From positions 1 through 41,792 of IMG/VR virus record IMGVR_UViG_3300035701_000088: DNA of 41,792 bases; one strand, given 5' to 3'. Positions 3,960-32,522 of this stretch are shown here, in pieces. Source of the DNA: a virus. The stretch's first letter is position 1; every line of letters starts with the position of its first letter. The position numbers and the translations under genes were made by a program. The notes under the pieces were generated by a model that worked only from the letters and a program-made list of their open reading frames with translations, made no database searches and was not told the DNA's origin.

Positions 3960-4313
3960 ATGTATTACCAAACTTATATGCAGCAATATTACTTAGAGCA
4001 CAAGGAAAAAATAAAAAAGCAATCTATGGAATGGAGAGAGAAGAATCCTGGCAGGTTAAAAATTATACAAAAAAGATATAAAACAAAACATGGAAAAGTA
4101 TTGGATAGGGATTTTAGAGAAGAAAAGATTGAAGTATTACCTTTTAAGGAAAGGGTGAGCCAGGAAACATTAGCTAAAATGAAGGAGAATAGTCAGGTTA
4201 ATCAGAAACTTGTTAAAAGATATTTTCCGAAAGACGATGAATCGGTTTATGAATTTTTGAGAAGATGTAGAACTGAATCCAATTACAAAAATATAAAAGA
4301 GGGGTGTTATTAG
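3960..4313 (+). CDS. Basic protein with repeats like those of the HNH endonuclease N-terminus (117 aa)
   Basis: Begins MYYQTYMQQYYLEHKEKIKK followed by SMEWREKNPGRLKIIQKRY, a Lys/Tyr/Trp-rich pattern close to the repeated YMKKWHKEHPEYNKQYY units of the HNH protein at 5365-6006. The C-terminal part (about 60-117) is different and ends YEFLRRCRTESNYKN. It has no HNH residues. It may bind DNA through the repeat region, or be a remnant related to the endonuclease. Start ATG abuts the preceding stop. Confidence 0.6.
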   Translation: MYYQTYMQQYYLEHKEKIKKQSMEWREKNPGRLKIIQKRYKTKHGKVLDRDFREEKIEVLPFKERVSQETLAKMKENSQVNQKLVKRYFPKDDESVYEFLRRCRTESNYKNIKEGCY

Positions 4314-4646
4314 ATGAATAAAAACTTAGACTTATTAAAGCAAGAATTTTTTGATGTGAGTTATGAAGGGATATTGAAATATCTTATCCCCGTTTTGGAA
4401 GATTTTGATAAGCAGATAACTGAATTAGAAAAATACGCTCAAGAATTTTTAAACTATAGAGAAATAAGCAAATTACAGATTAAATTAAAAGAATTGGGAG
4501 AAAAGATTAAGAAATTAGAGCAGGCACAAACTTATTTCCCTCCTATGGAAATGGAATATCAAATTGACGGTTATGATAATCGAATAGGCGGGCAAGATGA
4601 CCGAGGGAATATATTCAATTTATATGAAAAGAAAGGAGATGAATAA
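4314..4646 (+). CDS. Coiled-coil protein of unknown function (110 aa)
   Basis: An ATG just after the preceding stop, with a GAGGGG-type SD. Residues about 35-72 form a heptad-like charged helix (QITELEKYAQEF ... KLQIKLKELGEKIKKLEQ). The C-terminus is acidic and Gly-rich. No family is recognised. Confidence 0.6.
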   Translation: MNKNLDLLKQEFFDVSYEGILKYLIPVLEDFDKQITELEKYAQEFLNYREISKLQIKLKELGEKIKKLEQAQTYFPPMEMEYQIDGYDNRIGGQDDRGNIFNLYEKKGDE

Positions 4647-5072
4647 GTGAAGACACAAGAAGCGATTGAAATAAATGATAAAGAATTAATTAAGTTAATT
4701 GAAGATTTACAATTTGCTGAAGGAGATATTTTGGAGCGTAAATTTACAGAGAAATTAAAAAAAGACGATGGAGATTATCATGATAATAATAAGTTATTTG
4801 TTGTTGGCAGTCCAGGACCAGGGGCAAAGGTAGAAATATACTGGGTAAAATCGTGGGGGTTTGATAGACCTGATTATGGGTATATATTTACCTTACCAAT
4901 TGGAGGTAATTATGATGATATTTTTATGAGTGGAATAATCCATATCCCAAATCCACAAGGCGGGGAAAAATGTAACGAAGATGCAGAATGGGTTTATTTA
5001 GACAGACTTTTAGAAAATGAAAATATTGAAAAAATCAAGATTTTTGAAGAAAGAAAGGAGATGATTAAGTGA
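4647..5072 (+). CDS. Protein of unknown function (141 aa)
   Basis: GTG start with SD AAAGGAGATG. Acidic N-terminal half, then a region rich in aromatic residues, glycine and proline (VEIYWVKSWGFDRPDYGYIF). No family is recognised. Its TGA overlaps the GTG of the next gene (GTGA), a translational coupling arrangement. Confidence 0.6.
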   Translation: MKTQEAIEINDKELIKLIEDLQFAEGDILERKFTEKLKKDDGDYHDNNKLFVVGSPGPGAKVEIYWVKSWGFDRPDYGYIFTLPIGGNYDDIFMSGIIHIPNPQGGEKCNEDAEWVYLDRLLENENIEKIKIFEERKEMIK

Positions 5073-5368
5073 ATACGAAGGAAGCGATTCAATTTTTAAA
5101 AGTTGAAATTAAATGTCTTGAGAAAGAAATTGAAATTTGTAATCGAAATAATGATATAGATATACAAGTAATTGAAGCTAATAGAAATATAATTATAAAA
5201 TATAATCAGGTAATTATCCTACTTCAGCAGGGGGAGAAGTATAAGAATTATAAGTTGATGTGGGAAGAATTTAAGATATATGCAGAGGCAAGACCTTGTA
5301 GTGTGGCTCTACATTTACGGTGTAGAGATTATGAGCAAAAATACTTTCCAAAGGAAACTAATGAATGA
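5069..5368 (+). CDS. Protein of unknown function (99 aa)
   Basis: GTG start overlaps the previous stop by four bases, with SD AAAGGAG. N-terminal half is a predicted long helix (EAIQFLKVEIKCLEKEIEIC) rich in Ile and Glu; the C-terminal half contains ARPCSVALHLRCRDYEQKYFP. The start resembles 4647-5072 (KTQEAIEI versus NTKEAIQF), a short similarity only. ATGA overlap with the next gene. Confidence 0.6.
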   Translation: MNTKEAIQFLKVEIKCLEKEIEICNRNNDIDIQVIEANRNIIIKYNQVIILLQQGEKYKNYKLMWEEFKIYAEARPCSVALHLRCRDYEQKYFPKETNE

Positions 5369-6006
5369 ACAGAGAAGAAAATAAAAAGTATATGAAAAAA
5401 TGGCACAAAGAACATCCTGAATATAATAAACAATATTATAAAGAAAGTAGTGAATGGAAAACTAATAATTTAGAACATTGCAAAAAGTATATGAAACAAT
5501 GGCGTGAAAAAAATTCTAATTATATGAAAGAATATCGTAAACAATATAATTTTAATAATGCTAAAAGAATTAAAGTATATATGAAACAATGGCGAGGTGA
5601 TAATACTAAAAAAATTAGAATATATGAGAATCAATGGCGGGAAAATAGATATAAAACAGATTTAAAATTTAATCTTAATATTAAAATGTCAAGAGGAATA
5701 AATTCATCAATAAAAAATAATAAAAATGGTAGGCATTGGGAAACCTTTCTAAATTATACCTTAAAGGATTTAATCAAAAGATTAACAAAAACAATGCCAG
5801 AAGGTTATAATTGGCAAGATTATCTAAATGGAGAACTTGAAATTGATCATATAATCCCTAAAAGTAAATTTAACTTTACAAAACCAGAACATCCAGATTT
5901 CAAGAGATGTTGGGCATTAAATAATCTTCAATTATTACCAATGAGAGAAAATCGAATTAAAAGTGATAAATTAACAAGACCGTTTCAACTTGCATTAAAA
6001 ATGTGA
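5365..6006 (+). CDS. HNH homing endonuclease-like protein
   Basis: A 213-residue protein with a C-terminal HNH nuclease motif: EIDHIIPKS (Asp161-His162), then NNLQLLP (Asn187) and NRIKSDK (Asn196/Lys199), the usual beta-beta-alpha metal-finger residues. The first 95 residues are four to five degenerate repeats of a K-Y-M-K-x-W-R/H-x-x-N/H type, probably DNA-binding. Such HNH proteins are common mobile genes in phages. The start overlaps the previous stop (ATGA). It makes the third endonuclease-like insertion in this early region. Confidence 0.85.
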   Translation: MNREENKKYMKKWHKEHPEYNKQYYKESSEWKTNNLEHCKKYMKQWREKNSNYMKEYRKQYNFNNAKRIKVYMKQWRGDNTKKIRIYENQWRENRYKTDLKFNLNIKMSRGINSSIKNNKNGRHWETFLNYTLKDLIKRLTKTMPEGYNWQDYLNGELEIDHIIPKSKFNFTKPEHPDFKRCWALNNLQLLPMRENRIKSDKLTRPFQLALKM

Positions 6007-6404
6007 AAAGAAGGCGAAGAATGAAAGCAGTGAAATTAAACTTAATAGGTAGACCAATTACTAAAAAAAATTCTCAGAGAATAGTATTAACAAAAAATAA
6101 TAAAAGATTTATTATTCAAAGCAAACAATATCTTGATTATGAAAATAATTGTTTGTGGCAACTGAAAGCACAATATAAGGATGAAACCATAAAAAGTAAA
6201 TTGAACTTAAAAGCTTATTATTATATGCCAGATAGAAGAATACCAGACTTGATTAATTTATTACAATCTACTTGCGACATATTAGAAAAAGCAAGAATAA
6301 TAGAAAATGATAAAAATATAATATCTTTTGATGGTTCAAAAATAATGGGGATTGACAAGGAGAATCCGAGGGCGGAAATAATTATAGAAGGAGTTGAAAA
6401 GTAA
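6003..6404 (+). CDS. rusA: RusA-family Holliday junction resolvase
   Basis: The protein shows RusA landmarks: N-terminal LIGRPITKKNSQRI, central YLDYENNCLWQLK, and the catalytic region RRIPDLINLLQSTCDILEKA followed by IIENDKNI with conserved Asp residues. RusA cuts four-way junctions and in phages resolves replication and recombination intermediates before packaging. The GTG at 6003 overlaps the preceding stop; an in-frame ATG at 6021 behind a GAAGGCGAAG tract is an equally good start, giving 127 residues. It works logically with the RecT/Bet protein at 38863. Confidence 0.85.
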   Translation: MKRRRRMKAVKLNLIGRPITKKNSQRIVLTKNNKRFIIQSKQYLDYENNCLWQLKAQYKDETIKSKLNLKAYYYMPDRRIPDLINLLQSTCDILEKARIIENDKNIISFDGSKIMGIDKENPRAEIIIEGVEK

Positions 6405-6432: not shown

Positions 6433-6468
6433 ATGAATAAATTAAAAGAATTAAGCATAACAAAATGA
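6433..6468 (+). other. Very short open frame with perfect SD (11 codons)
   Basis: AAAGGAGGAA precedes ATG with ideal spacing, but the frame stops after 11 codons. A one-base shift would extend it by about ten more residues. It could be a leader peptide or the remnant of a small gene. Nothing else is seen between 6405 and 6517. Confidence 0.3.
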
Positions 6469-6517
6469 AATAATTAATGATACAAAGCAAAAATAAATTT
6501 GACAGACTAAAGATTTA

Positions 6518-6739
6518 TTGCTTTTTAAAGGAGTTGATGATAGAATAGAAAAAATAGAGATAAGATGTGTAAAATGTGGAAAGAGAATTTTTGATGGATC
6601 TCCAGGGATGGATTATCTTGGAATACCTAAAGTAATTGAATTGAAATGTCCTCATTCATATTTAGGTCATAGGTGTGGGGCGATTAATATTATTACTTGC
6701 AGGATAGAGGAGAAGGTGGTTGTGAGGTTGAAGGAATGA
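6518..6739 (+). CDS. Com-like small zinc finger protein
   Basis: The product contains IEIRCVKCGKRIFDG and, about 25 residues later, IELKCPHSYLGHRCG, the pattern of the Mu Com-type zinc finger family (mRNA-binding translational regulator in phage Mu). The spacing between the second pair of cysteines is longer than in Com, so metal binding may differ. The TTG at 6518 is the only conventional start but lacks an SD; AAAGGAG at 6527-6533 points to a start near 6542-6545 where only ATA is in frame. The start is therefore uncertain. Confidence 0.6.
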   Translation: MLFKGVDDRIEKIEIRCVKCGKRIFDGSPGMDYLGIPKVIELKCPHSYLGHRCGAINIITCRIEEKVVVRLKE

Positions 6740-6969
6740 ATATAAATAAAAAGGAAGAAAAATTTCTAAAAGATTTAGGGGAAGCAATATTAAATTATTT
6801 AAAAAATGGAATAGGTACGGTTAATATTGATGATTTTAAATATACTAATAAAGGGAAGGATTGGTATAAGATGTCATTTTACTTTAAGTTTCCATCAGCA
6901 GATATAACTGTTAAAAAAGTAATGGAAAAAGCTCAGTTTGGTATTACAGTAACGAAGAATTTATGTTAA
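6736..6969 (+). CDS. Small protein of unknown function (77 aa)
   Basis: The ATG at 6736 overlaps the stop of the Com-like gene (ATGA), with a GAAGGA tract upstream. The open frame runs back to 6697 but that extension lies inside the preceding gene. N-terminal charged helix, then an alternating pattern (WYKMSFYFKFPSADITVKK) suggesting beta strands. Last gene of the early cluster before the late promoter region. Confidence 0.55.
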   Translation: MNINKKEEKFLKDLGEAILNYLKNGIGTVNIDDFKYTNKGKDWYKMSFYFKFPSADITVKKVMEKAQFGITVTKNLC

Positions 6970-17735: not shown

Positions 17736-19190
17736 ATGCCAATTGGAAACAAAGGATTCATTGGAGTTAAGAAAGAGACTACTTGGGGCTCGAAAGTAGT
17801 AGGTGATAATGATTTTTATTTACCATTTGTTAGTGAAACTCTTACCGCTAATATTGAGAAAATATTATCAGCAGCACAGAGAGGAGTTGTTGATAAACCA
17901 AAATCATATCAAGGGGAAAGGGCTTTTACTGGTGATATTGTTTTAGAAGTTCATCCGGCAAGTTTGGGAGCTATTTTACGAAGTGCTTTCGATGTGCCAG
18001 ATACAGATCCTGCAGGTACAACCGAGACTTTACTGGAAAATTGTGAGGATGCCTGGAATGAGTTAGTGGATGGTGGAGTAATATCTGGATTAGATGTAGT
18101 GGATTATAAAAAAGGTAGTGGTTCAGTGAAGATACAGATTACTGCTGATGTATCGGCAGGTGATATTTGTGCTTCTGAGATTTTAGCTTCCACTGATATG
18201 CATTTAGATACTGCTTTACGGTTCTGGATTAAATCAGATGTGGCCTGTGACGCTTCAGATTTAGCGATAAGAATTTCTGAATCTGTTTTATGTGGAGTTG
18301 GCGGGACTTATAAAGATGTATTAGTCCCTGCCTTAGTTGCTGGAGTATGGACAGAATGCACTGTTACTATGGCTTCTATGACTGATTTCAATGCAGTGAT
18401 AAGTATTGGTTTAATACTGAAAGTAGATAAAGGCGAAATGACCGTCAATATTGATGATATTAGAAGGGTAGTAACTGGAACTGCTGCCACTGCCAAACAG
18501 CATATATTTATACCCAGACAGGATGATTTTCACGCAGATTGTCCTCTCAATCCTTATACTTTAGAAGTTTATCGGGACCAAGGGGATTCCTTCCAATTTT
18601 TAGGAGGGGTGGTAAATACCTTAAAATTAGATTTCTCTACTACTAATAAAATCTTAAAAGCAACTTGTGGAATCATCAGCAAAAATTTAGGTGATGTAGC
18701 AAAGACTTCTGTATCTCTTGAAACTACTAATCCATTTCTCTGGAGTAATGCAGTAATATCAATCGGTGATTCACCTGTCGTTAATAATGATATAGAGAGT
18801 TTCGGAATAGATTATAACAATGCCTGTAGAGCAAAATATACCCTCAACAATACTGTAATACCCAGAAGTATTATCAGAGATGGTTTTAGAACTACAATGA
18901 TTAATTTTGTAATCGATTTTGTGGATAGAACTGAATATAATAAATTTTTATTGGGGACAGAACAGGCTTTTCTAGTAAAGTTTGAAGGTGCAGAAATAGC
19001 TGGCAATGCTGGTGTTTATTATACCCTGCAGATCGATATGCCAAAAGTTCAATATGAAGCTTTCCCGATTAATATTGGTGGACCGGGAAGATTGACCTGT
19101 GCAGTTATTGCAGAAGCTAATTATGATCCAACTGGCGGGGTTTTATATGCCATTAAGGAAAAGTTAATTAATTTAACACCAACATATTAA
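17736..19190 (+). CDS. Major tail tube protein with an inserted carbohydrate-binding-like domain
   Basis: 484 residues, longer than the usual 150-350. The N-terminus (GFIGVKKETTWGSKVV ... AAQRGVVDKPKSYQGERAFTG) and C-terminus are tail tube-like. Residues about 100-247 form a separate beta-sandwich-like module: LLENCEDAWNELVDGG, TALRFWIKSDVACDASDLAI, then MTVNIDDIRRV. The same kind of module occurs in the exported protein at 29741 (residues about 85-255). The insert is likely displayed on the tail surface and may bind glycans; that role is inferred. SD AAGGAAGTG. Confidence 0.8.
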   Translation: MPIGNKGFIGVKKETTWGSKVVGDNDFYLPFVSETLTANIEKILSAAQRGVVDKPKSYQGERAFTGDIVLEVHPASLGAILRSAFDVPDTDPAGTTETLLENCEDAWNELVDGGVISGLDVVDYKKGSGSVKIQITADVSAGDICASEILASTDMHLDTALRFWIKSDVACDASDLAIRISESVLCGVGGTYKDVLVPALVAGVWTECTVTMASMTDFNAVISIGLILKVDKGEMTVNIDDIRRVVTGTAATAKQHIFIPRQDDFHADCPLNPYTLEVYRDQGDSFQFLGGVVNTLKLDFSTTNKILKATCGIISKNLGDVAKTSVSLETTNPFLWSNAVISIGDSPVVNNDIESFGIDYNNACRAKYTLNNTVIPRSIIRDGFRTTMINFVIDFVDRTEYNKFLLGTEQAFLVKFEGAEIAGNAGVYYTLQIDMPKVQYEAFPINIGGPGRLTCAVIAEANYDPTGGVLYAIKEKLINLTPTY

Positions 19191-19673: not shown

Positions 19674-20231
19674 TTAATCACATAAAACTATAAGATTAAA
19701 TTTACTAATTTTAGGGTTACTAGTTACCATAGTTTTAAAATTTGCTTTTTGATTAGGATTTAATGTTGTAGGGTCAGAATAACATGTAGTAATGGAAACG
19801 AGTTTACCAAATTTGTCGAGGGCTTGAATTTCTAATCGAACATAATTAGCAATAATTTTACTCGTGTTTTGTAAGATGCCTTCAACATAAATATATTTGC
19901 CAGATTCGCTTGGATAATTAGTCCAATCAACAATTTTTATATTGGCTATCGGTTGTGGTTTTGATTTTATTTCTGGTTCTGGTTCTGGTTCTGGTTTGAA
20001 TATCGTTTGAGGTTGAGATGATTTTTGAAATGATTCGCTTTCTTTTAAAATATAAAATGTGTAACCAAGTTTTAGATAATTATCTTTTACGTTATCTAAA
20101 TTCGTAATCATAATAATATTGCCTTCTTGGTTTTGGATAAAATAAAGTGTGGCATAAGAAAAATTAAAGAAGATTATATTTAAAAAAAATATTAAAGAAA
20201 TGATTAAAAGAAAAGATTTAAGATTTTTCAT
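19674..20231 (-). CDS. Secreted FxLYD-like protein, antisense cargo gene (moron)
   Basis: 185 residues on the minus strand between the tail chaperone and tape measure genes. A Sec signal peptide (KK-rich start, 20-residue Leu/Ile/Phe core, SYA cleavage site at about 27) is followed by a DUF4124-like short segment (TLYFIQNQEGNIIMITNLD), a PEPEPEPE linker and a C-terminal beta domain (IYVEGILQNTSKIIANYVRL ... LNPNQKANF) matching FxLYD-type domains. It has its own promoter and SD (CAGGAGG). This is cargo, not tail assembly; a role in altering the host surface or excluding other phages is inferred. Confidence 0.8.
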   Translation of the reverse strand: MKNLKSFLLIISLIFFLNIIFFNFSYATLYFIQNQEGNIIMITNLDNVKDNYLKLGYTFYILKESESFQKSSQPQTIFKPEPEPEPEIKSKPQPIANIKIVDWTNYPSESGKYIYVEGILQNTSKIIANYVRLEIQALDKFGKLVSITTCYSDPTTLNPNQKANFKTMVTSNPKISKFNLIVLCD

Positions 20232-23000: not shown

Positions 23001-24695
23001 ATGGAAACAATTATAAAATGTTTTTTGGGAGTAAATGCACAACCTGCTGAGCAAAAAACTTATGCTAATATAGCTGGAACATTATTAGTAGACGATAATG
23101 ATTTAGGTAATTTTTTCGGAGTAAGGATTCCCTGTTCACTTACCGTTACCAGAAATGTTGTTGGTGCTTGCCTTAATACCAGTCAGGGAATACGAATTAC
23201 TATTACTGTTGACGGGGAAGATGTAAGTGATTCCTTAGTGGGCAATATAACAATATCGCATAACTTGAATTATATTAGCACTTTTTCATTTAGTTTGGGT
23301 GATCCGAAATATTCCCCATTAGTTGACTCTCATATAGCCGTTAATTCAGTGGTAATAATCACTGCCTATATTAACGGGCAGACGATTAAGATGTTTACAG
23401 GGTTGTTAGATGAGACAAGAACCACTTATGATGGCGGTTATAGATTAAATATTATAGGTAGGGATTATGGGAAGAAATTACTTGATAAGACTATGACCTT
23501 AATCTCAGTTCAGGATTCAGCAAATAAATCAATGAGGGGTTCGATGGTAGAATATCTTGCTGGGCAGGCAGGTATAACCAATATAAACGTGCCTGCTGGT
23601 GATGCAGTTATTATTGACCATAGTTTTCAAGACCAGACTATTTGGGATATGATTCAAAAGGAATGTGCCATAGAAGGTTGGTATGTGAGATTTGACGAAA
23701 ATGGAGTAATGAAGATAAAAACCAGAACTATTAAAACTGACACAACTGATTATCCCGTTGCCGACTGGGAATACGGAGAAGATAAATTTGTCCAATTGGG
23801 TTTGGAAACATCGGATAAGGGTATTATAAATAAAGTAATTATATTAGGTGCAATCTTTGAAGAAGAAACCATAACAATTACACCTGCCGATACTACAGAA
23901 ACTCCTCCAGAAGTGGATGTTCCAGAATCAGAATATACTGAAGATTCTATCCCTGTATCTAAAAGTTTTGTTTTAGGTGAAAGTGTAACCGCTTGGTCTT
24001 ATAGTTCGGGTGGTTATACAGTTACTACTTCTTATAAAGGCCCAATTAAACCTTCTGGATATATCTTCCCCAAATATCAATCTTATGGATTTCATATAAG
24101 TGGAGCTAATATTGTAGATGTAACTTATTCTATAAGCGGTGGAGCACATATAGAGAGTCAGAGTAAAACTGGATGCCTTATCTATCGGGATATACAATCT
24201 ACATTGGATTGGGTGTTTACAGAAAAGGCTTTTTCTGTAACTATCACCATTAAAACTAAAGTAGAAACTGCAGGTGGGGACGTCTGGATTGCTGATAATC
24301 TTCCTGCTGAAGTGGCCGCAGATACAGTTGTATCTACTATAACCTATACGCAGGTAAAAGCATCTGTCGAAGATGCCGCATCTATTGCTTTATATGGCGA
24401 GCGCAAACCTAACAATGAAGGCACTTTAGAATTTCCATTAGCTGAAACAGAAGCACAATGCAAAAGGATAGGGGAAAATATTATATTAGATAGTCATAGA
24501 TTTATTAAACAACCTGATGATAGCGTTCCTTTTAATCCCAAATTAATTGTAGGGGAAACAGTAGAATTTACCGATAAGAAAATTGGTTATGATGAGGATA
24601 GATATTTTGGAGAAGAAGTAATCCATACTATCGACATTGATAAGGAAGGCAAAATAAAAGCTCGCACCAGAACAGGATGTGTTTATTATGCTTAA
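23001..24695 (+). CDS. Tail hub protein, gpD/gp27-like
   Basis: 565 residues from ATG 23001, chosen over the upstream TTG because GAGGAAG lies ahead of it. Features typical of late control D / baseplate hub proteins: GIRITITVDGEDVSDSLVGN, FSFSLGDPKYSPLVD, FTGLLDETRTTYDGGYRL, NIIGRDYGKKLL, then IQKECAIEGWYVRFDENG. A Thr/Ser/Pro-rich insert at about 285-420 looks like an additional beta domain. It joins the tail tip to fibers. Confidence 0.75.
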   Translation: METIIKCFLGVNAQPAEQKTYANIAGTLLVDDNDLGNFFGVRIPCSLTVTRNVVGACLNTSQGIRITITVDGEDVSDSLVGNITISHNLNYISTFSFSLGDPKYSPLVDSHIAVNSVVIITAYINGQTIKMFTGLLDETRTTYDGGYRLNIIGRDYGKKLLDKTMTLISVQDSANKSMRGSMVEYLAGQAGITNINVPAGDAVIIDHSFQDQTIWDMIQKECAIEGWYVRFDENGVMKIKTRTIKTDTTDYPVADWEYGEDKFVQLGLETSDKGIINKVIILGAIFEEETITITPADTTETPPEVDVPESEYTEDSIPVSKSFVLGESVTAWSYSSGGYTVTTSYKGPIKPSGYIFPKYQSYGFHISGANIVDVTYSISGGAHIESQSKTGCLIYRDIQSTLDWVFTEKAFSVTITIKTKVETAGGDVWIADNLPAEVAADTVVSTITYTQVKASVEDAASIALYGERKPNNEGTLEFPLAETEAQCKRIGENIILDSHRFIKQPDDSVPFNPKLIVGETVEFTDKKIGYDEDRYFGEEVIHTIDIDKEGKIKARTRTGCVYYA

Positions 24696-24990
24696 TTTAG
24701 CACAGGCGAACAGACAGAATACGGCAGGAAATATTACTTTTAGAAATACTTATATCACTGCTGAAATAAAAGAAGACCAGGGGAATGGTAAATATAAAGT
24801 TGAGATAGCAGGGTCAGGAAAAGATTATCCTAATGTATTTACCATTGTAACCGACCCTACGTATGTAGTTGGTGACAAAGTTGGTATTCTTTGGGAATAT
24901 GGCAATCGAGAAAAACCTGTTATAGCAGGAATATTAAGGGATATTAAATTTATAGAAGTGACTGGCGGGGTAAACTCGTTAGGCACTTAA
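24688..24990 (+). CDS. OB-fold baseplate protein, gpV-like (100 aa)
   Basis: ATG 24688 overlaps the end of the hub gene. A compact beta barrel pattern is visible: YITAEIKEDQGNGKYKVEIA, VFTIVTDPTYVVGDKVGILW, then REKPVIAGIL. This resembles the OB domain of spike proteins gpV/gp5 without a spike. The next gene carries a related copy. Confidence 0.65.
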   Translation: MLNLAQANRQNTAGNITFRNTYITAEIKEDQGNGKYKVEIAGSGKDYPNVFTIVTDPTYVVGDKVGILWEYGNREKPVIAGILRDIKFIEVTGGVNSLGT

Positions 24991-25007: not shown

Positions 25008-25763
25008 ATGAAAAAATTATGGATACTGTTAATAATTATAGGAGTTTTATTTATGTTTAAACCTATTAATTCGATTATAAAGGATTCGATTGGCAATATT
25101 ATTTATCGGGGTAATGTAGTAACTGGAATTGTGGCAACCGATAATGGCGATAAAAGTTACGATGTTTTTATATCTGAATCAGATAGAGCATATCCTCATA
25201 TATTTACATTATCAGCAAATCCTAATTTAGCGGTCGGTGATAAAGTGCGAATTTTATATAAAAATGGTTGTAAAGAATTACCGATTATATTACCACCAAC
25301 GATTGCAATTCCTGCAATAACGGGTGAATGGGTAAGTCCTACAGGATATATTGATGCTTTATATGATGCTTCAAAAGGATGGTTTAATCCAACAAGAATT
25401 TATGATGAAAATTTAGAGAATTATTCCGCATACAATGTATCTAAATTAAGTTGGACTCATTTTATTGAACTTATCCATGAAGCTATGCTTTGTAACAAAG
25501 TTCGTCTTTATGTCGGTTATCTTCTTGGCAATATAGATAAAATTGATATAGATGCCTATTATGACGGAGTATGGCACGATGTTTATGAGGGTGATTATGC
25601 ACACGAATGTGATGAAACTGGTAATCCTTTAGAATGGTATGAAAAATCATTAGATTCTATACAAACAATTACAGAGTTTAGATTTCGTTTTTATAATTCA
25701 CATCCTACAAATAGTTATTTTGCATCAATATGGGAAGTAGATTTTTTTAAAGTAGACGAATAA
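25008..25763 (+). CDS. Membrane-anchored or secreted OB-fold plus discoidin-like protein
   Basis: 251 residues. An N-terminal hydrophobic segment (LWILLIIIGVLFMF) acts as signal or anchor. Residues about 35-95 repeat the OB pattern of the preceding gene (GIVATDNGDKSYDVFISESD, ANPNLAVGDKVRILY). The C-terminal 150 residues (YDASKGWFNPTRIYDENLEN, FIELIHEAMLCNKVRLYVGY, DIDAYYDGVWHDVYEG) are a beta-sandwich domain shared with 31848-32522. It appears to be an exported copy of a baseplate module. Confidence 0.7.
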   Translation: MKKLWILLIIIGVLFMFKPINSIIKDSIGNIIYRGNVVTGIVATDNGDKSYDVFISESDRAYPHIFTLSANPNLAVGDKVRILYKNGCKELPIILPPTIAIPAITGEWVSPTGYIDALYDASKGWFNPTRIYDENLENYSAYNVSKLSWTHFIELIHEAMLCNKVRLYVGYLLGNIDKIDIDAYYDGVWHDVYEGDYAHECDETGNPLEWYEKSLDSIQTITEFRFRFYNSHPTNSYFASIWEVDFFKVDE

Positions 25764-25780
25764 AAAGGCGAGGTGATTAA

Positions 25781-27541
25781 ATGGCAGTAGACCCAAATCC
25801 GAAAATATACAATGCGGCTGATGATGCAGAAATCACCGCTATAAACTTTGGCACTGGAGATGCAGGAAGCTATGAAGATGCTGAAGCAGGAGTAGAATAT
25901 CACGTCTGGAATGATAAGGGATTAGTATTAGGTTCGTCCAGAATGACTTCAGTAAAAATTACTGTCAGGGATGCTGATGGATTAGAAGTAGAAAATGTTA
26001 CTATTCAAAAATGGGCAGAAATTAAATCTACCACTATAGAAATAGGCGCGGATATTGGTAATGGTATTGGAGTTCTTACAGATGAAACCGATGATGATTG
26101 GCCAGAATTTCAAGCGGTGGGGAAAGAGAATTATGCTACTCTTGGAAACATTCCTGCTAACTGTTATAGAGTGATATTCGTTAGGGTGAATATTCCGACC
26201 AGTGCGTTAGGGATAGGATATACTTTTAATATTTATGTGACTAATCAGCAACCTTCCTCTTCTATTGCTAAATGGATTACTGGTTTATGGGGTAACGGTA
26301 TTGTCAATGGAACGCATACCCTCGAAGTTACTGATAATGCAGGTGCAGATTCAAAGATAGATATAGATTCGGGGACTGCTCTTATAAATGATAGAGAAGT
26401 TTATTTAAGTGTGGCACAAACTTATACTATCTCAGTTGTAGCAGGGACTTATAAAATATATCTTACCAGTGTAGGGGTAATAAGTTCAACGACTGGAACG
26501 ATACCCACTAATTCGATATGTCTTGCCTATGTTACCATTGCCGGCGGAGTAGTAACTACTATTGTTGATTATAGAAATATTTATAGTTTTCAAAACTATA
26601 ATAGAATAATTGCACAGCATTTTCAAGATATGATGGCAGCCGATCCTGACGGAATTCACGCCGCGATTACTGGAACAGGTGCAGAACAGGAAGTTACTAA
26701 TGGGATCACTAATCCTGATTATGCAAGGAATATGAGTATAACTACCACAAATATAGCAGCACCTTCCGGTAACGTAATAATCACCGGGATAGTTAGGGGA
26801 GTAAGTGATACTGAAAGCATTGCTATTATAGCAGGAACTATTGCTTATGGTAATAAGGCTTTCGATACAGTAACGAAAATAACCTTACCTGCGGGGGTAA
26901 CTGCTGCCGATACTGTAACAGTAGGATTTTCGGATAAGATAGGATTATCGAGTCAAATAAATGCTATTTCGGCAGTTTTCAAAAAGAAAGTAAATAATAC
27001 AGACAAAACCTCTGAATTAACTGGCAAGGTTAGTGCAGTTTATCATACCGTAGATTGCTCACCGATTGCAGTTTATCAGGACATGGAATTAAGATATGTA
27101 AGAGGCGATGATGGAACTTGGGCCGAAACCCCAGATACGGGAATTGGATATACTATCCCAGTTCAAGCTCTAACTTCAAGTCCTGCCGATGGTGCAACCA
27201 CCTATTTTGGAAATTTACCGAAAGCTCCAGTTACGGTTGCCGCTACCAGTAAAATTTATATCCGAAAAGCAGGAACAATTAAGATAGTGGAAATCTATTG
27301 TTACTCTGGAACGGCAGGAACTAATGAAAGCTGGTCATTATCTATTAGATTAAATGGCACTACCGATTATTTAATTGCCGCAGTTGCGGCAGCGGCCAAT
27401 GAGAGAATATTTAGTAACACTGCATTAAGTATAGCAGTAGTTGCAGGGGATTATATTGAAATTAAAAGTGTGCAACCTACTTGGGTCACCAACCCATTAA
27501 CGAGTATTTTTTCTGGGTATATTTACATAGAAATAAATTAA
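25781..27541 (+). CDS. Large tail fiber / baseplate protein (586 aa)
   Basis: SD AGGCGAGGTG. Begins like upper baseplate/fiber proteins (MAVDPNPKIYNAADDAEITA). The middle, about 295-445, has a domain with DPDGIHAAITGTG, NGITNPDYARNMSITTTN, and TIAYGNKAFDTVTKI that is paralogous to the C-terminus of the exported protein at 27922. The C-terminal jelly-roll-like part ends in a strand-rich segment. No signal peptide, unlike its neighbours, so this is the best candidate for the virion fiber. Confidence 0.7.
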   Translation: MAVDPNPKIYNAADDAEITAINFGTGDAGSYEDAEAGVEYHVWNDKGLVLGSSRMTSVKITVRDADGLEVENVTIQKWAEIKSTTIEIGADIGNGIGVLTDETDDDWPEFQAVGKENYATLGNIPANCYRVIFVRVNIPTSALGIGYTFNIYVTNQQPSSSIAKWITGLWGNGIVNGTHTLEVTDNAGADSKIDIDSGTALINDREVYLSVAQTYTISVVAGTYKIYLTSVGVISSTTGTIPTNSICLAYVTIAGGVVTTIVDYRNIYSFQNYNRIIAQHFQDMMAADPDGIHAAITGTGAEQEVTNGITNPDYARNMSITTTNIAAPSGNVIITGIVRGVSDTESIAIIAGTIAYGNKAFDTVTKITLPAGVTAADTVTVGFSDKIGLSSQINAISAVFKKKVNNTDKTSELTGKVSAVYHTVDCSPIAVYQDMELRYVRGDDGTWAETPDTGIGYTIPVQALTSSPADGATTYFGNLPKAPVTVAATSKIYIRKAGTIKIVEIYCYSGTAGTNESWSLSIRLNGTTDYLIAAVAAAANERIFSNTALSIAVVAGDYIEIKSVQPTWVTNPLTSIFSGYIYIEIN

Positions 27542-27555
27542 GAAAGGAGGATATT

Positions 27556-27897
27556 ATGAAACGAATTTTAGTGTTTGCAATGGTTTTGTGTATGATTCTA
27601 TTACTTTGTGCGGGGGCGCAAGAACAAGGAATAGACCCACTAGGCGATAAAATGAATGATAACAAACCTGGTAAGGTAACTACTCCTATACCTCCACCTG
27701 TACCTGTTGCTAAACCAGTTACACAATTAACGGTTAAAATAATTGACGATATGAACGATAAGGTTGTCGAACTAAATAATTGTATCGTACAGATAGTTGG
27801 GGAATTACATATATGCGAAGACTCGTTCAAATATCAAAATTCCTTTACTGAAGGAGATAAGTACGAGATGGTTATTTGGGTAAAACTTAAAAAATAA
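27556..27897 (+). CDS. Small secreted protein (113 aa)
   Basis: ATG 27556 with SD AAAGGAGG; the frame upstream belongs to the previous gene. Signal peptide (KRILVFAMVLCMILLLCAGA), a Pro/Thr-rich linker (TTPIPPPVPVAKP) and a short domain with VKIIDDMNDKVVELNNCIVQ. A Cys near the signal end could be lipidated, though the residues before it (LLL) do not fit the standard lipobox. Unknown function. Confidence 0.65.
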   Translation: MKRILVFAMVLCMILLLCAGAQEQGIDPLGDKMNDNKPGKVTTPIPPPVPVAKPVTQLTVKIIDDMNDKVVELNNCIVQIVGELHICEDSFKYQNSFTEGDKYEMVIWVKLKK

Positions 27898-27921
27898 ACT
27901 ATGAAAAGAGGTGAAAAAATT

Positions 27922-29181
27922 ATGAAGAAATTAATTGTACTATTAATGGTAGTTTCCTTTTTACTTGTAGGCATAATATCAAATGTCTTTGCTGTAATTG
28001 CTCCCGCAAATGTAGGTCCAACTACTGACTTTCTTGGCGATGTAGGAGTCCCAACTGGGGGCGGATACTATGTCAATGATACTTTAGTTTTGGCTGCAGA
28101 TTCTCTTACTTTTAGCGGAACAGGAACACTTAACGGACTTGATGCAGTAGACGCAACTGGTGAAGATACCATCGAAGCTCTTATCTTTGATGCTGATGCA
28201 GAAAGTATTTTAGGCGTCTGGGAAGTGGCAGATGATGTAGATTTGGTTTTTGGTACTGATGCTAACTGGGCAATAAATTATGATGAAAGTGTCGATGACC
28301 AATTAATCTTTCTTACTGCTGGAACTGCCGCTGGTGCTGTTACCGACCCCTTGTTTGAAATTATAGTAGGTGCTACTCCTACTTCTAATCAAGAAGTGTT
28401 TGGTGTAGCAAAGGGGACTCAAGCGTCGAATACATCGTTGTTTAGCGTTGACGAAGATGGAGACGTTTTAATCCCCGGAACTTTAGGAGTAACTGGAGTA
28501 GTTACTTTGACTACTGCTCTTGGTGCAGACCAGGGTGGAACTGGGGTAGCGAATAACGCAGGGGAAACCTTAACTTTTGTAGGTGATGATGCAGTTGAAT
28601 TTACTACTTCTGGACCAACTACAGTAACGTTACCGACCACTGGAACATTAGCTACTACTGCTGATTTAGCAGCTGCTGGAAACCATATAGACCATTTTAT
28701 GGATGTGGACGCTGCCGATCCTGATTATGTCCACGTAGCAATAGTTGGAACTGGTGCAAGTCAAGATGTTTCTACAGGAATTACTAATCCCGATTTTGGT
28801 AGAAATATTACCGTTACTTCTACTGCCGGTTCGGTTGGAGTGGTTACTATAACTGGAACGACTGCTCTCGGGGCACTTAATGCAACCGATGCAATAACTA
28901 TAGTTGATGGTAGTATTGCTTATGGCGTTAAGGCATTTGTAACCGTAACAAAGATTAATACATCTGTTGCCTTTATCAGTCCTGAAGAAGTTACTATCGG
29001 TATAGGTGACGTAATCGGATTAAGTAATGGAATCAGTGAAGAAGCTGATATATACAACAAGGTCGTTGATGGTGTAAATGAATTTGATGAAATAAGTACA
29101 AAAGGAAATGCTACTAACGAAACTCTGGATTGTGCAACTATTGTACAGAACGAAGATATTACAATTTATTATCATCCGTAA
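27922..29181 (+). CDS. Exported tail fiber-like protein (419 aa)
   Basis: ATG 27922 is preferred over 27901 because AGAGGTG lies ahead of it. Signal peptide (KKLIVLLMVVSFLLVGII, cleavage near NVFA). The middle has the fiber motif DQGGTGVANNAGETLTF and TTVTLPTTGTLATT, common in phage tail fibers. The C-terminal 150 residues (DPDYVHVAIVGTG, TGITNPDFGRNITVTST, SIAYGVKAFVTVTKI) are paralogous to part of the 25781 gene. A fiber with a signal peptide is unusual. Confidence 0.7.
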   Translation: MKKLIVLLMVVSFLLVGIISNVFAVIAPANVGPTTDFLGDVGVPTGGGYYVNDTLVLAADSLTFSGTGTLNGLDAVDATGEDTIEALIFDADAESILGVWEVADDVDLVFGTDANWAINYDESVDDQLIFLTAGTAAGAVTDPLFEIIVGATPTSNQEVFGVAKGTQASNTSLFSVDEDGDVLIPGTLGVTGVVTLTTALGADQGGTGVANNAGETLTFVGDDAVEFTTSGPTTVTLPTTGTLATTADLAAAGNHIDHFMDVDAADPDYVHVAIVGTGASQDVSTGITNPDFGRNITVTSTAGSVGVVTITGTTALGALNATDAITIVDGSIAYGVKAFVTVTKINTSVAFISPEEVTIGIGDVIGLSNGISEEADIYNKVVDGVNEFDEISTKGNATNETLDCATIVQNEDITIYYHP

Positions 29182-29191
29182 TAGATTATAA

Positions 29192-29213
29192 GGGGGCAGG
29201 TAAAACTGCTCCC
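29192..29213 (+). terminator. Hairpin between fiber genes
   Basis: GGGGGCAG (29192-29199) pairs with CTGCTCCC (29206-29213), including one G-U pair. The following TTGATGATTTT is a poor U-tract, so termination would be partial at best. Confidence 0.4.
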
Positions 29214-29239
29214 TTGATGATTTTAAAGTAGGTGAATGT

Positions 29240-29737
29240 ATGAGAAAAAAACTAAATATAATTTTAATCATTTTATTGATATTTAGCTTATTTACCATAA
29301 ATATTAGTGCTATACCTATAGGAGCGAAGGTTGAGGATTTATTCGATTCTACTTTGGCAACCGACCACAGTTATTCTGGATTAACTTTAACCTTAACCGT
29401 AGGGGAATCTGTTGTCTTTGGTGATGTAGTCTATATGAATTGGACGGATAAAGAGGTTAAAAAAGCACAAGCAAATGCCTCTACAACCGTCCCTGCCATT
29501 GGTATAGCATTGGAAACAAAAGCAGATGGGCAAGCTTGTCTTATTCTGGTTTTTGGTTATATACGAGATGATAGTTGGGCATTTACAGCTTCGATGGTTT
29601 ATTTATCCGATACTACGGCAGGTGGAGTTTTAAGTGCTGCACCTTCTGATGCTGGTGACCAAATACAACGACTAGGATTTGCCTTTCACGCCGACAAAAT
29701 GTTCTTTAATCCAAGTTTTGATGTAGGAGAAATTTAA
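29240..29737 (+). CDS. Exported protein with a virion-decoration-like beta domain (165 aa)
   Basis: Signal peptide (RKKLNIILIILLIFSLFTI, cleavage near NISA). The mature part (YSGLTLTLTVGESVVFGDVV, VPAIGIALETKADGQACLI, VYLSDTTAGGVLSAAPSDAG) resembles the DUF2190-like or fiber C-terminal beta domains of phages, where G-x-V-Y-L-S and P-x-x-x-G recur. Likely displayed outside the cell or on the virion. Confidence 0.65.
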   Translation: MRKKLNIILIILLIFSLFTINISAIPIGAKVEDLFDSTLATDHSYSGLTLTLTVGESVVFGDVVYMNWTDKEVKKAQANASTTVPAIGIALETKADGQACLILVFGYIRDDSWAFTASMVYLSDTTAGGVLSAAPSDAGDQIQRLGFAFHADKMFFNPSFDVGEI

Positions 29738-29740
29738 GAT

Positions 29741-31846
29741 ATGAAAAAATTTATTATTGTTTTAACTATATTATTTTTTCTTTTTAGTAGTGCTGTATTT
29801 GCGACAACTTTCTATTTAAATTATGAAAATGGGCTTGATGCTAATGCAGGAGATTCATTTGCCGCTGGTCATCCGTGGAAGACTATTACTTTGGGAGCAA
29901 CAGCGGCCAGAATAGCTCCAGGTGATATTATTCGTATTGCCAAAAGTCCTGCACCTACTTCTATCGGAAATGGGACTTGGACGAGTTTATCTAAAACGGT
30001 TACTTTAGCTACTGCTGGAACAGCAGTTATAGATTTATGTGAAACTGCTTGGACTGGAGCAGGAGATACAACCATAACCAGAACTGCGGTAGCAACTGAG
30101 GGAAAAGAAGGTTCTTATTGTATGCAACTTACCGTAGATGCATCTCCACAAGCAAGTATTTTGCAGGCATACTACGATATTTATACTCACGATACAACTG
30201 TTCATGATTTATCCGCTTATCAAAAAATATCTTTCTGGATAAAAAATCCATTTGGCGCAGTTAATGTTAATAACTGGATAGTTAACTTGTGTTCTGATGT
30301 GGCTGGGGCTACAGTGGTAGATAGTTTTCTTGTCCCCGTACTTGCATCAGCGACTAAATGGGTGCCTTTAACTTTGACTAAAGTTGGTGGGGGAAATTTG
30401 GGGGCATCAATAAAATCGATTGCGATATACTCTGATACATCCACTACTGGAATGGCTTCAAAGTATATCTTTGTAGACGACTTTATTGCCTGCACTACTA
30501 ATGGTTTAAATCTTCAAAGTTTAATATCAAAAAATTCAGCGGAGCAAGGTGGAACAGAAGGTTGGTATGGAATACAAAGTATTAATGGAGTAACAGTTTT
30601 ATTAGATAATGGTACAAGTTGTAAGGGAAATACAGGTAAAGGTTATTCGGGCACAACAGAAACGGTAATTACCTATAAAAGAGAAACAATTAAGACAGCT
30701 ATGGGAGAGGGTAACCCCTCACAAATTCAGGCAATTCAAGATAGTGGAAGTTTAGCAGCGGGCAATATTCAATTTCAAGGCGGATATGATATAACTTCTG
30801 GAGAACAAACGGGAGAAACATTTTTTGACGGATTGAATGGACATGGTTATGGAATATATCTAACTTCTATAAATTATATTACATTTAATTATTTAAATGT
30901 TGTTAGATATAATTACGGATTTAATTTTACCTCCAGTCATTACAATACCATAACCACTCTGTCTAATGCTAATAATAATGATTACTGTGGAATTGCGTTT
31001 GATAGTTGCAATAACAATACCATAACCACTCTGTCTAATGCTAATAATAATGGGAATTATGGAGTTTATTTTAGTAATTCTCATAACAATACCATAACCA
31101 CTTTGTCTAATGCTAATAATAATCTTAATAATGGCGGAGTTTATCATACAGCCAGTAACAACAATGTTATAACTATTTTATCCAATGCTAATAATAATCC
31201 TTATGGAGTTTATTATACTCTTGGTTGCGTTAATAATATTATAAGGTCATTATCAACTACGGGAAATACGACAGGTGGAGTTTATTATAATGCAATTTCA
31301 GCACCAAACTACTTGAATAATGCTTTAATTGCTGAAGGAACGGAAATCAGTTTCACTCCAACTGCTTATTACAATTATCGTATCTATTCTAATAATCATG
31401 ACCAAGATACGACTAAAAATTTCATATACACTGACGGTGGGTTAATTAGTTCAGTAGCAACAGATAGAGTGGGTGGAACTGGGATAATGTGGAAGTTAGC
31501 GGTTACCTCAAATACCAGAACGAGTTTTTATCCCCTCAAATTATCTATTGCTAAAATAGCGGTGGTAGCCAGTAAATTAGTTACCGTAAAGGCATATATG
31601 AAGATTACCAGCACCACTGACATTTTAGGGGCTTTAGTATGCCCTGGTGGACAATTAACGGGCATAACTGTAGCTGATGTTAAAACTAATACGGGAACTG
31701 CAGATACGAGTTGGCACGAACTAACTATAACCTTTACACCAACACAGGCAGGAGTAGTTGAGATTGAAGCGTGGGCTTGGTGGGTAGCAAGTACTGCTGA
31801 TGAGAGTGTCTATGTAGAAGATATGACTATAACACAGGCGGATTAA
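29741..31846 (+). CDS. Exported right-handed beta-helix protein with carbohydrate-binding-like insert (701 aa)
   Basis: Signal peptide (KKFIIVLTILFFLFSSAVFA). A DUF1565-type opening (NGLDANAGDSFAAGHPWKTI) is followed at about 85-255 by a beta-sandwich module (ISFWIKNPFGAV, SKYIFVDDFIAC) like that in the tail tube protein. Residues about 400-500 are NosD/PbH1-type beta-helix coils built on NNNTITTLSNANNN. A C-terminal beta domain (about 560-700) follows. Such helices in tailspikes bind or cleave polysaccharide; no catalytic residues can be named here. Confidence 0.75.
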   Translation: MKKFIIVLTILFFLFSSAVFATTFYLNYENGLDANAGDSFAAGHPWKTITLGATAARIAPGDIIRIAKSPAPTSIGNGTWTSLSKTVTLATAGTAVIDLCETAWTGAGDTTITRTAVATEGKEGSYCMQLTVDASPQASILQAYYDIYTHDTTVHDLSAYQKISFWIKNPFGAVNVNNWIVNLCSDVAGATVVDSFLVPVLASATKWVPLTLTKVGGGNLGASIKSIAIYSDTSTTGMASKYIFVDDFIACTTNGLNLQSLISKNSAEQGGTEGWYGIQSINGVTVLLDNGTSCKGNTGKGYSGTTETVITYKRETIKTAMGEGNPSQIQAIQDSGSLAAGNIQFQGGYDITSGEQTGETFFDGLNGHGYGIYLTSINYITFNYLNVVRYNYGFNFTSSHYNTITTLSNANNNDYCGIAFDSCNNNTITTLSNANNNGNYGVYFSNSHNNTITTLSNANNNLNNGGVYHTASNNNVITILSNANNNPYGVYYTLGCVNNIIRSLSTTGNTTGGVYYNAISAPNYLNNALIAEGTEISFTPTAYYNYRIYSNNHDQDTTKNFIYTDGGLISSVATDRVGGTGIMWKLAVTSNTRTSFYPLKLSIAKIAVVASKLVTVKAYMKITSTTDILGALVCPGGQLTGITVADVKTNTGTADTSWHELTITFTPTQAGVVEIEAWAWWVASTADESVYVEDMTITQAD
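30942..31198 (+). repeat. Four near-identical 38-39 bp repeats in the beta-helix gene
   Basis: Copies begin at 30942, 31014, 31086 and 31161, 72-75 bp apart, each ending TAATGCTAATAATAAT. They encode the core of the beta-helix coil TITTLSNANNN. The first three are nearly identical at DNA level, indicating recent expansion by recombination or slippage. Confidence 0.85.
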
Positions 31847-31847
31847 T

Positions 31848-32522
31848 ATGAAAAGATTATTATTAATTATATTATTTTGTTTCTTTATAACTACAATGGG
31901 ATTTTGCAAATGGTATATTCCAGATATCCATTATGACCCAGATAATTTATGGAATAATGAAACCTTGATTTATGATGATAATGATATAACTGCAGGAGAT
32001 ACTTCAGTTGCAAAATTGACTTGGAGCAGTTTTATTTTATTAGATGTTTATAATGAATTGTATTGTGAGATAATAAAATTTTTAGCTTATCAAAAGGGTG
32101 TTTTGGGAATAGAAAAAATAGATATAGATTTATATTATAATTCTGCTTGGCATGATTTATTTGAGGGAACTTTTATTAATCAAGTATGGAAACAGATTAA
32201 TGTAATACCTTCTCAGTATCTTTATAGTGCAAGAATTCGCTTCTATGCTAGAAAAGCGGATATTGCATATTTTTATGGATTTGAGTATTGGAATATCGGT
32301 ATTGGTGATTTGATTACTATGGATTTTTCTTTTCAGGCGCAACCGTTTATAAATATTACTGCAAAGGATACTATTGATTTAGAAACAATGGATTATGCTT
32401 TTCAGGGGCAACCATTCGTAACTATGATAGAAGCAGTAGCAGGTTGGTCTCATAAATGGAATACTGCGACGATTTCTAAATGGAATAATACAACATTTAG
32501 CAAATGGAATGGATTGGAATAA
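31848..32522 (+). CDS. Exported discoidin-like protein with FQxQPF repeats (224 aa)
   Basis: Signal peptide (KRLLLIILFCFFITTMGFC). Residues about 25-150 are paralogous to the C-terminal domain of 25008-25763 (LWNNETLIYDDNDI, VLGIEKIDIDLYYNSAWHDL, RIRFYARKADIAYF). Then come two repeats MDFSFQAQPF and MDYAFQGQPF and a C-terminal pair of SKWN motifs, as seen at the ends of some phage structural proteins. Probably an adhesin or fiber-tip protein. Confidence 0.65.
   Translation: MKRLLLIILFCFFITTMGFCKWYIPDIHYDPDNLWNNETLIYDDNDITAGDTSVAKLTWSSFILLDVYNELYCEIIKFLAYQKGVLGIEKIDIDLYYNSAWHDLFEGTFINQVWKQINVIPSQYLYSARIRFYARKADIAYFYGFEYWNIGIGDLITMDFSFQAQPFINITAKDTIDLETMDYAFQGQPFVTMIEAVAGWSHKWNTATISKWNNTTFSKWNGLE

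Follow-up and report, generated by a model that had tools for sequence, protein, structure and literature searches.

Tail fibres are understood as cytoplasmic parts of the virion. The fibres and tailspikes of the Caudoviricetes, among them Klebsiella phage depolymerases and TSP2 and TSP4 of CBA120, resemble the module described here in their position in the tail block, in the beta-helix (here in the product of gene 29741; genes are called by their first position) and in sequence, with relatives in phages and in the Methanosarcina virus MetMV. However, those compared (lambda, T7, P22 and homologues) have no signal, whereas five or six proteins have one here.

Single phage-encoded exported proteins are already known, including one predicted signal in the fibre-like PblB (PMC4508584). 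PblB, a streptococcal prophage adhesin, combines tail-fibre homology with a predicted signal peptide and a carbohydrate-binding end; in S. mitis it is released through permeabilisation in the lytic cycle, and PblB of SF100 is shown without a signal peptide (PMC4508584). Comparison with this literature shows that PblB and the present module are both fibre-like with predicted signals, but PblB is a single large protein, and a family with signal-bearing and signal-less counterparts, present here, is not described for it in PMC4508584. The T5 lipoprotein Llp blocks the receptor that T5 itself uses, and progeny are kept from adsorption to the fragments of lysed cells (PMC9586334). Llp works like the proteins below in being an exported phage protein with the effect that we propose as masking; unlike them it is a small lipoprotein of the periplasmic side, not derived from fibres, and the six proteins here have no lipobox. 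Lambda Lom (PMC12309495) is likewise a signal-bearing gene inside a tail-fibre block, but it is a single gene for an outer-membrane beta-barrel with no fibre domain. In the open-access literature we found no report of a fibre module with mostly signal-bearing genes and signal-less relatives.

Gene order, relatives and host

The window, a virus record of 41,792 bases (IMG/VR IMGVR_UViG_3300035701_000088, positions 1-41,792), has a siphovirus-like gene order: terminase, SPP1-type portal, major head protein, tail genes, tape measure, tail-tip genes, the fibre module (25008-32522), a glucosaminidase endolysin and a holin. The module occupies the tail-fibre position of this order, and in all relatives seen it sits within structural and lysis genes. 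Relatives, numbered with an L, were found with the conserved tail protein upstream of the module; their genes are automatic calls. The features concerned are:

23001..24695, plus strand, conserved tail protein (phrog_1887), the query by which relatives were found
24688..24990, plus strand, signal-less OB-like paralogue of 25008, 100 aa
25008..25763, plus strand, 251-aa protein with an optional hydrophobic leader (25008-25052), an OB-like domain and a variable C-terminal region
25040..25055, plus strand, Shine-Dalgarno AGGAG and in-frame internal ATG (Met16, 25053) within the leader, a probable second start
25781..27541, plus strand, signal-less fibre protein, 586 aa, with a conserved N-terminal domain and a C-terminal region holding a domain shared with 27922
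27556..27897, plus strand, 113-aa signal-bearing protein: signal 27556-27618 (AGA↓Q, the arrow marking the predicted cut), Pro-rich linker, conserved domain
27922..29181, plus strand, 419-aa signal-bearing fibre protein; signal 27922-27993 (VFA↓VIAP)
29240..29737, plus strand, 165-aa signal-bearing protein; signal 29240-29311 (ISA↓IP); cement/fibre-tip-type domain (weak Pfam Phage_cement_2, phrog_12121)
29741..31846, plus strand, 701-aa signal-bearing beta-helix protein; signal 29741-29803 (VFA↓TTFYLNYENG)
31848..32522, plus strand, 224-aa protein; signal 31848-31907 with a weak site (MGFC↓K), middle part shared with 25008, C-terminal DYAFQGQPF module

The glucosaminidase endolysin indicates that the host is a bacterium. 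A GTDB-wide scan with the tail protein retrieved only two contigs of one WOR-3 MAG and nothing else among the 147 genomes of the phylum. The holin of the window was found in none of the 147 WOR-3 genomes, and other WOR-3 genomes contain related domains without signals. On these three grounds (single MAG, absent holin, signal-less domains) we did not accept WOR-3 as the settled host and treat it as a weak lead; the two contigs may be misbinned. The holin (PF09682, 36309-36734) is 96% identical in DNA to that of L030 (11985-12404), and this near-identity suggests a common host for phages whose heads differ.

Several genes elsewhere in these genomes were noted in passing. Immediately ahead of its tape-measure gene the window has, on the other strand, a signal-bearing gene (19674-20231, minus) with an FxLYD domain (NF038353), and small signal-bearing minus-strand genes fill the same slot in L013 (7019-7579), L017 (6857-7246), L011 (6362-6517) and L016 (3849-4007); the slot is likely an accessory-gene site, judging by its content. 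At 677-2263 the window encodes a DNA methylase (N6_N4_Mtase) with a LAGLIDADG-like insertion (about residues 218-299) that may be an intein or homing endonuclease. In L013, a contig binned as WOR-3, a predicted lipoprotein with a caspase-like domain (18129-18977; NF047832, below cut-off) adjoins signal-bearing fibre genes. L031 has two signal-bearing genes (4015-6369 and 6434-6838) amid head and neck genes, outside its fibre module. Related genes of about 165 aa lie near the fibre and lysis genes of L013 (14119), L014 (14086), L031 (11252) and L007 (14059), and by eye only they have the look of transglutaminase-type cysteine peptidases. The uncultured phages L063-L069 have two to six signal-bearing genes each in their fibre and lysis regions, and several of the signals are lipobox-like.

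Export signals in the fibre module

In the sequence-only reading, six genes of the module (25008, 27556, 27922, 29240, 29741 and 31848) were taken to encode one set of exported proteins that start with Lys or Arg, a hydrophobic core and usually a V/I-x-A cleavage site. All six genes are present at the coordinates given, each with a ribosome-binding site. We scored signals with a simple heuristic (charge, 10-residue hydrophobic core, -3/-1 rule) and not with a trained predictor. The N-termini of all six proteins have K/R followed by a hydrophobic core (10-residue Kyte-Doolittle mean 3.2-3.6), and 6/6 have a positive n-region and, close to the N-terminus, an uncharged core at least about 10 residues long. 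By this heuristic scorer strong signals occur in 6/7 module genes versus 2/58 other genes of the window (hypergeometric P 2e-6). Over 13 loci the counts were 27/55 in the module versus 16/267 outside it (Fisher P 1e-13, a value that is too small and only indicative because the loci are related). The L016 module has 1/5 signal genes once the leader of its 25008 homologue, missed in the 13-locus tally, is counted.

None of 141 internal Met positions in the window's called genes scored. When all ATGs followed by 45 open codons were taken, 9 of 262 scored, about the number of genuine signal genes. None of the lambda, T7 and P22 structural proteins tested scored, and Lom, Rz, Rz1 and Bor did. Chance hydrophobicity and mis-called starts were rejected on the internal-Met control and the presence of ribosome-binding sites. 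A lipobox search of the six proteins gave no match, and we rejected a lipoprotein identity for them on that result.

Signal-peptidase-I-like sites, with small residues at -3 and -1, were seen in 27922 (VFA↓V), 29741 (VFA↓T), 29240 (ISA↓IP) and 27556 (AGA↓Q). The basic and hydrophobic N-termini described for all six proteins are therefore as claimed, but the cleavage motif is less general: the likeliest cuts of 27556 and 29240 are AGA↓Q and ISA↓IP, the site of 31848 (MGFC↓K) is weak and doubtful, and 25008 has no clear site.

Working signal peptides usually change fast in sequence while keeping their hydrophobicity and cleavage residues. The signal of 27922 compares in this way with that of its L030 homologue: 11/13 changed codons are non-synonymous in the signal and 26/104 in the mature part, and the cleavage residues and hydrophobicity of the signal are kept despite the amino-acid changes. 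This retention, together with the match of the mature parts to signal-less fibre modules elsewhere, upholds the view that the signals are real and not a product of chance. From these features 27556, 27922, 29240, 29741 and probably 31848 are, with good confidence, predicted to be Sec-exported, and at least the first four would be cleaved by signal peptidase I.

The six genes do not form one uniform set, as had been supposed. The leader of 25008 behaves differently: it is present in 11 of 14 homologues and absent from those of L007, L009 and L011, which begin at the internal Met. All 14 have AGG(A/G)G 7-9 bases 5' of the equivalent ATG, and in the leader-bearing homologues this motif is embedded in codons for I/L-G-V or I-G-G. 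Because the leader is optional and precedes a conserved Shine-Dalgarno sequence and internal ATG, 25008 looks like a dual-start gene rather than one with a simple signal peptide; the simplest reading of the sequence is that it probably makes two products from two starts. The short product would be a virion hub and the long one a membrane-directed form. We place this leader outside the signal set because L016 keeps it while its other fibre genes are signal-less. The OB-like part proposed for 25008 rests on 31% identity to the neighbouring 24688-24990. Pfam did not confirm the proposed discoidin-like domain, although the region common to 25008 and 31848 does exist.

Signal-less counterparts and a shared cassette

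The mature parts of the exported-type proteins have relatives without signals. The 29741 and 29240 mature domains, and the domain shared by 25781 and 27922, all have homologues in phages. For 29741 we found ten signal-less relatives, nine from IMG/VR (including L016, 67% identical) and one from MetMV; L024 and L025 carry an identical sequence and were counted once. These relatives begin with M-x(1-2)-(Y/F/W)Y(L/M/V)D, which aligns just past the predicted cut at residue 21, and DNA similarity of 29741 to L016 and L024 begins at 29805, one base into codon 22. A second family, which we take to be DUF2341, consists of fibres that bear a signal in L004, L013 and L053 but lack one in 12 other loci; in nine of the 12 the gene begins at the mature N-terminus or close to it, and in the remaining three the domain lies inside a longer protein. 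The three signals end in GxC (GFC, GDC and GYC), like that of 31848. We rejected missed signals as an explanation for the signal-less genes: in none of the ten beta-helix relatives does an in-frame upstream start add a signal, and the same holds for the nine DUF2341-type genes.

The beta-helix description of 29741 was borne out by an AlphaFold2 model of moderate quality (mean pLDDT 65.9, best in residues 370-530), which is a right-handed beta-helix. With Foldseek the model matched tailspikes at low TM-scores, resembling tailspike depolymerases and carbohydrate-binding modules; Pfam gave a weak CBM_11 match. The model of 27922 was too poor to be used for its fold.

An initial search for relatives with 29240 alone as query found none. 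In the window its domain is a separate signal-bearing protein; in L063-L069 (L064 and L065 being near-identical) and L072 it makes up the C-terminal part of fibres that bear a signal. The 25781 homologue of L016, which has no signal, also ends in this domain, and no signal accompanies it in L071, L073-L076 or Silicibacter phage DSS3phi2. As for the DYAFQGQPF module of 31848, L016, L021, L022, L024, L027 and MetMV have it as a gene without a signal, located at the beta-helix gene or close to it.

A 27556-type gene lies directly 5' of a 27922-type gene in the window, L004, L030 and L031. The 27922 homologue of L030 is 91% identical, yet L030 and the window have different head and portal genes, and DNA matches between the two are confined to 27700-29275 (85%), the holin and a short stretch of 25781. 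On sequence grounds, the signal-bearing cassette 27556-27922, which recurs in L030 and L031, is one that moves between phages whose head genes differ. At its C-terminus 27922 has a domain paralogous to the C-terminal region of 25781, and L030 and L031, otherwise different phages, repeat the arrangement of a signal-less protein with the shared domain followed by the exported-type pair; both observations strengthen the suggested pairing of exported proteins with the non-exported fibre 25781. The N-terminal domain of 25781, conserved among its relatives, is missing from the exported proteins, and we infer that it would be the docking part.

Surveying related phages, as the sequence-only reading had advised, thus showed that signal-bearing fibres recur beside signal-less counterparts of the same modules. 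Besides the window, a dozen or more contigs of uncultured phages have signal-bearing genes of tail-fibre type; such genes turn up again where the head genes are different, and seven or more additional contigs have them too. Because the signal-less state is the common one, the signals look as if they had been grafted onto fibre modules of the ordinary kind, although in any single case either gain or loss of a signal may apply.

Possible roles of the exported proteins

In the mechanism that we propose, 27556, 27922, 29240, 29741 and probably 31848 would enter the Sec route and be cleaved. Such targeting and cleavage would place their mature domains, of fibre, tailspike and cement type, at work outside the cytoplasm; Sec alone delivers to the periplasm only. 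There they may occupy or alter the infected cell's glycans or receptors, and those of the debris once the cell has lysed, which would keep progeny from being wasted on dead envelopes. Masking would also hinder competing phages, as 27922 and the signal-less fibre 25781 of the same phage have related domains. We favour masking because the export signals stand on fibre-type domains that lie next to a signal-less fibre with a related domain. The whole reading, of Sec-exported and processed fibre-type proteins that act outside the cytoplasm with receptor masking as preferred role, is a tentative one; masking of receptors or glycans as the main role is possible though rather doubtful.

The main rival, which we consider somewhat unlikely, is that these proteins are fibres of the virion: once exported, they would fold and form trimers in the periplasm and be added to the tails when the compartments mix at lysis. 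The genes do occupy the tail-fibre place in the gene order, and their mature parts match fibre modules that are signal-less in other phages and are presumably, for that reason, assembled in the cytoplasm. Within the window neither 29741 nor 31848 is matched by a signal-less counterpart, so virion use is conceivable for them. However, the exported proteins are without the conserved N-terminal domain of 25781, and keeping fibres in another compartment brings no obvious benefit. Moreover, L007 and L009 have no fibre genes past the 25781 homologue, and the extra set therefore looks dispensable.

Secreted polysaccharide depolymerases or glycan binders, loosening the surrounding matrix before or at lysis, are an unlikely explanation of the module as a whole. 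For 29741 by itself the model, like tailspike depolymerases and carbohydrate-binding modules, and the CBM_11 match mean that it could equally be an extracellular depolymerase; but the fold similarity is general only, and 27556, 27922 and 31848 are left unexplained. Very improbably, the hydrophobic N-termini stay uncleaved as host-membrane anchors or membrane-active virion segments. This would suit 25008 and 31848, which have no clear cleavage site, but four of the six proteins have normal sites, and the predicted cut of 29741 coincides with the start of its signal-less homologues. We give least credence to adhesins of lysogenic conversion serving the bacterium and not the phage, the role proposed for PblB of pneumococcal prophages, a protein with a predicted signal peptide and homology to tail fibres (PMC4508584). 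No integrase was seen among the window genes examined (the family search covered part of the genes), and the position of the module among structural and lysis genes in every relative seen speaks against it.

Taken beyond this window, receptor masking would mean that a group of uncultured phages repeatedly makes exported decoys by adding Sec signals to fibre genes. The signal-less fibre would be kept for virions, and decoys with related domains would coat host receptors for self-protection and competition; we regard this wider reading as doubtful. The question is directly testable because one module exists with and without a signal (29741 and its L016 homologue). If the reading is true, receptor-binding proteins serve some phages in a second, extracellular way, or else are assembled by a different route; either outcome would alter the annotation of fibres and views of superinfection, adsorption to debris and matrix clearance.
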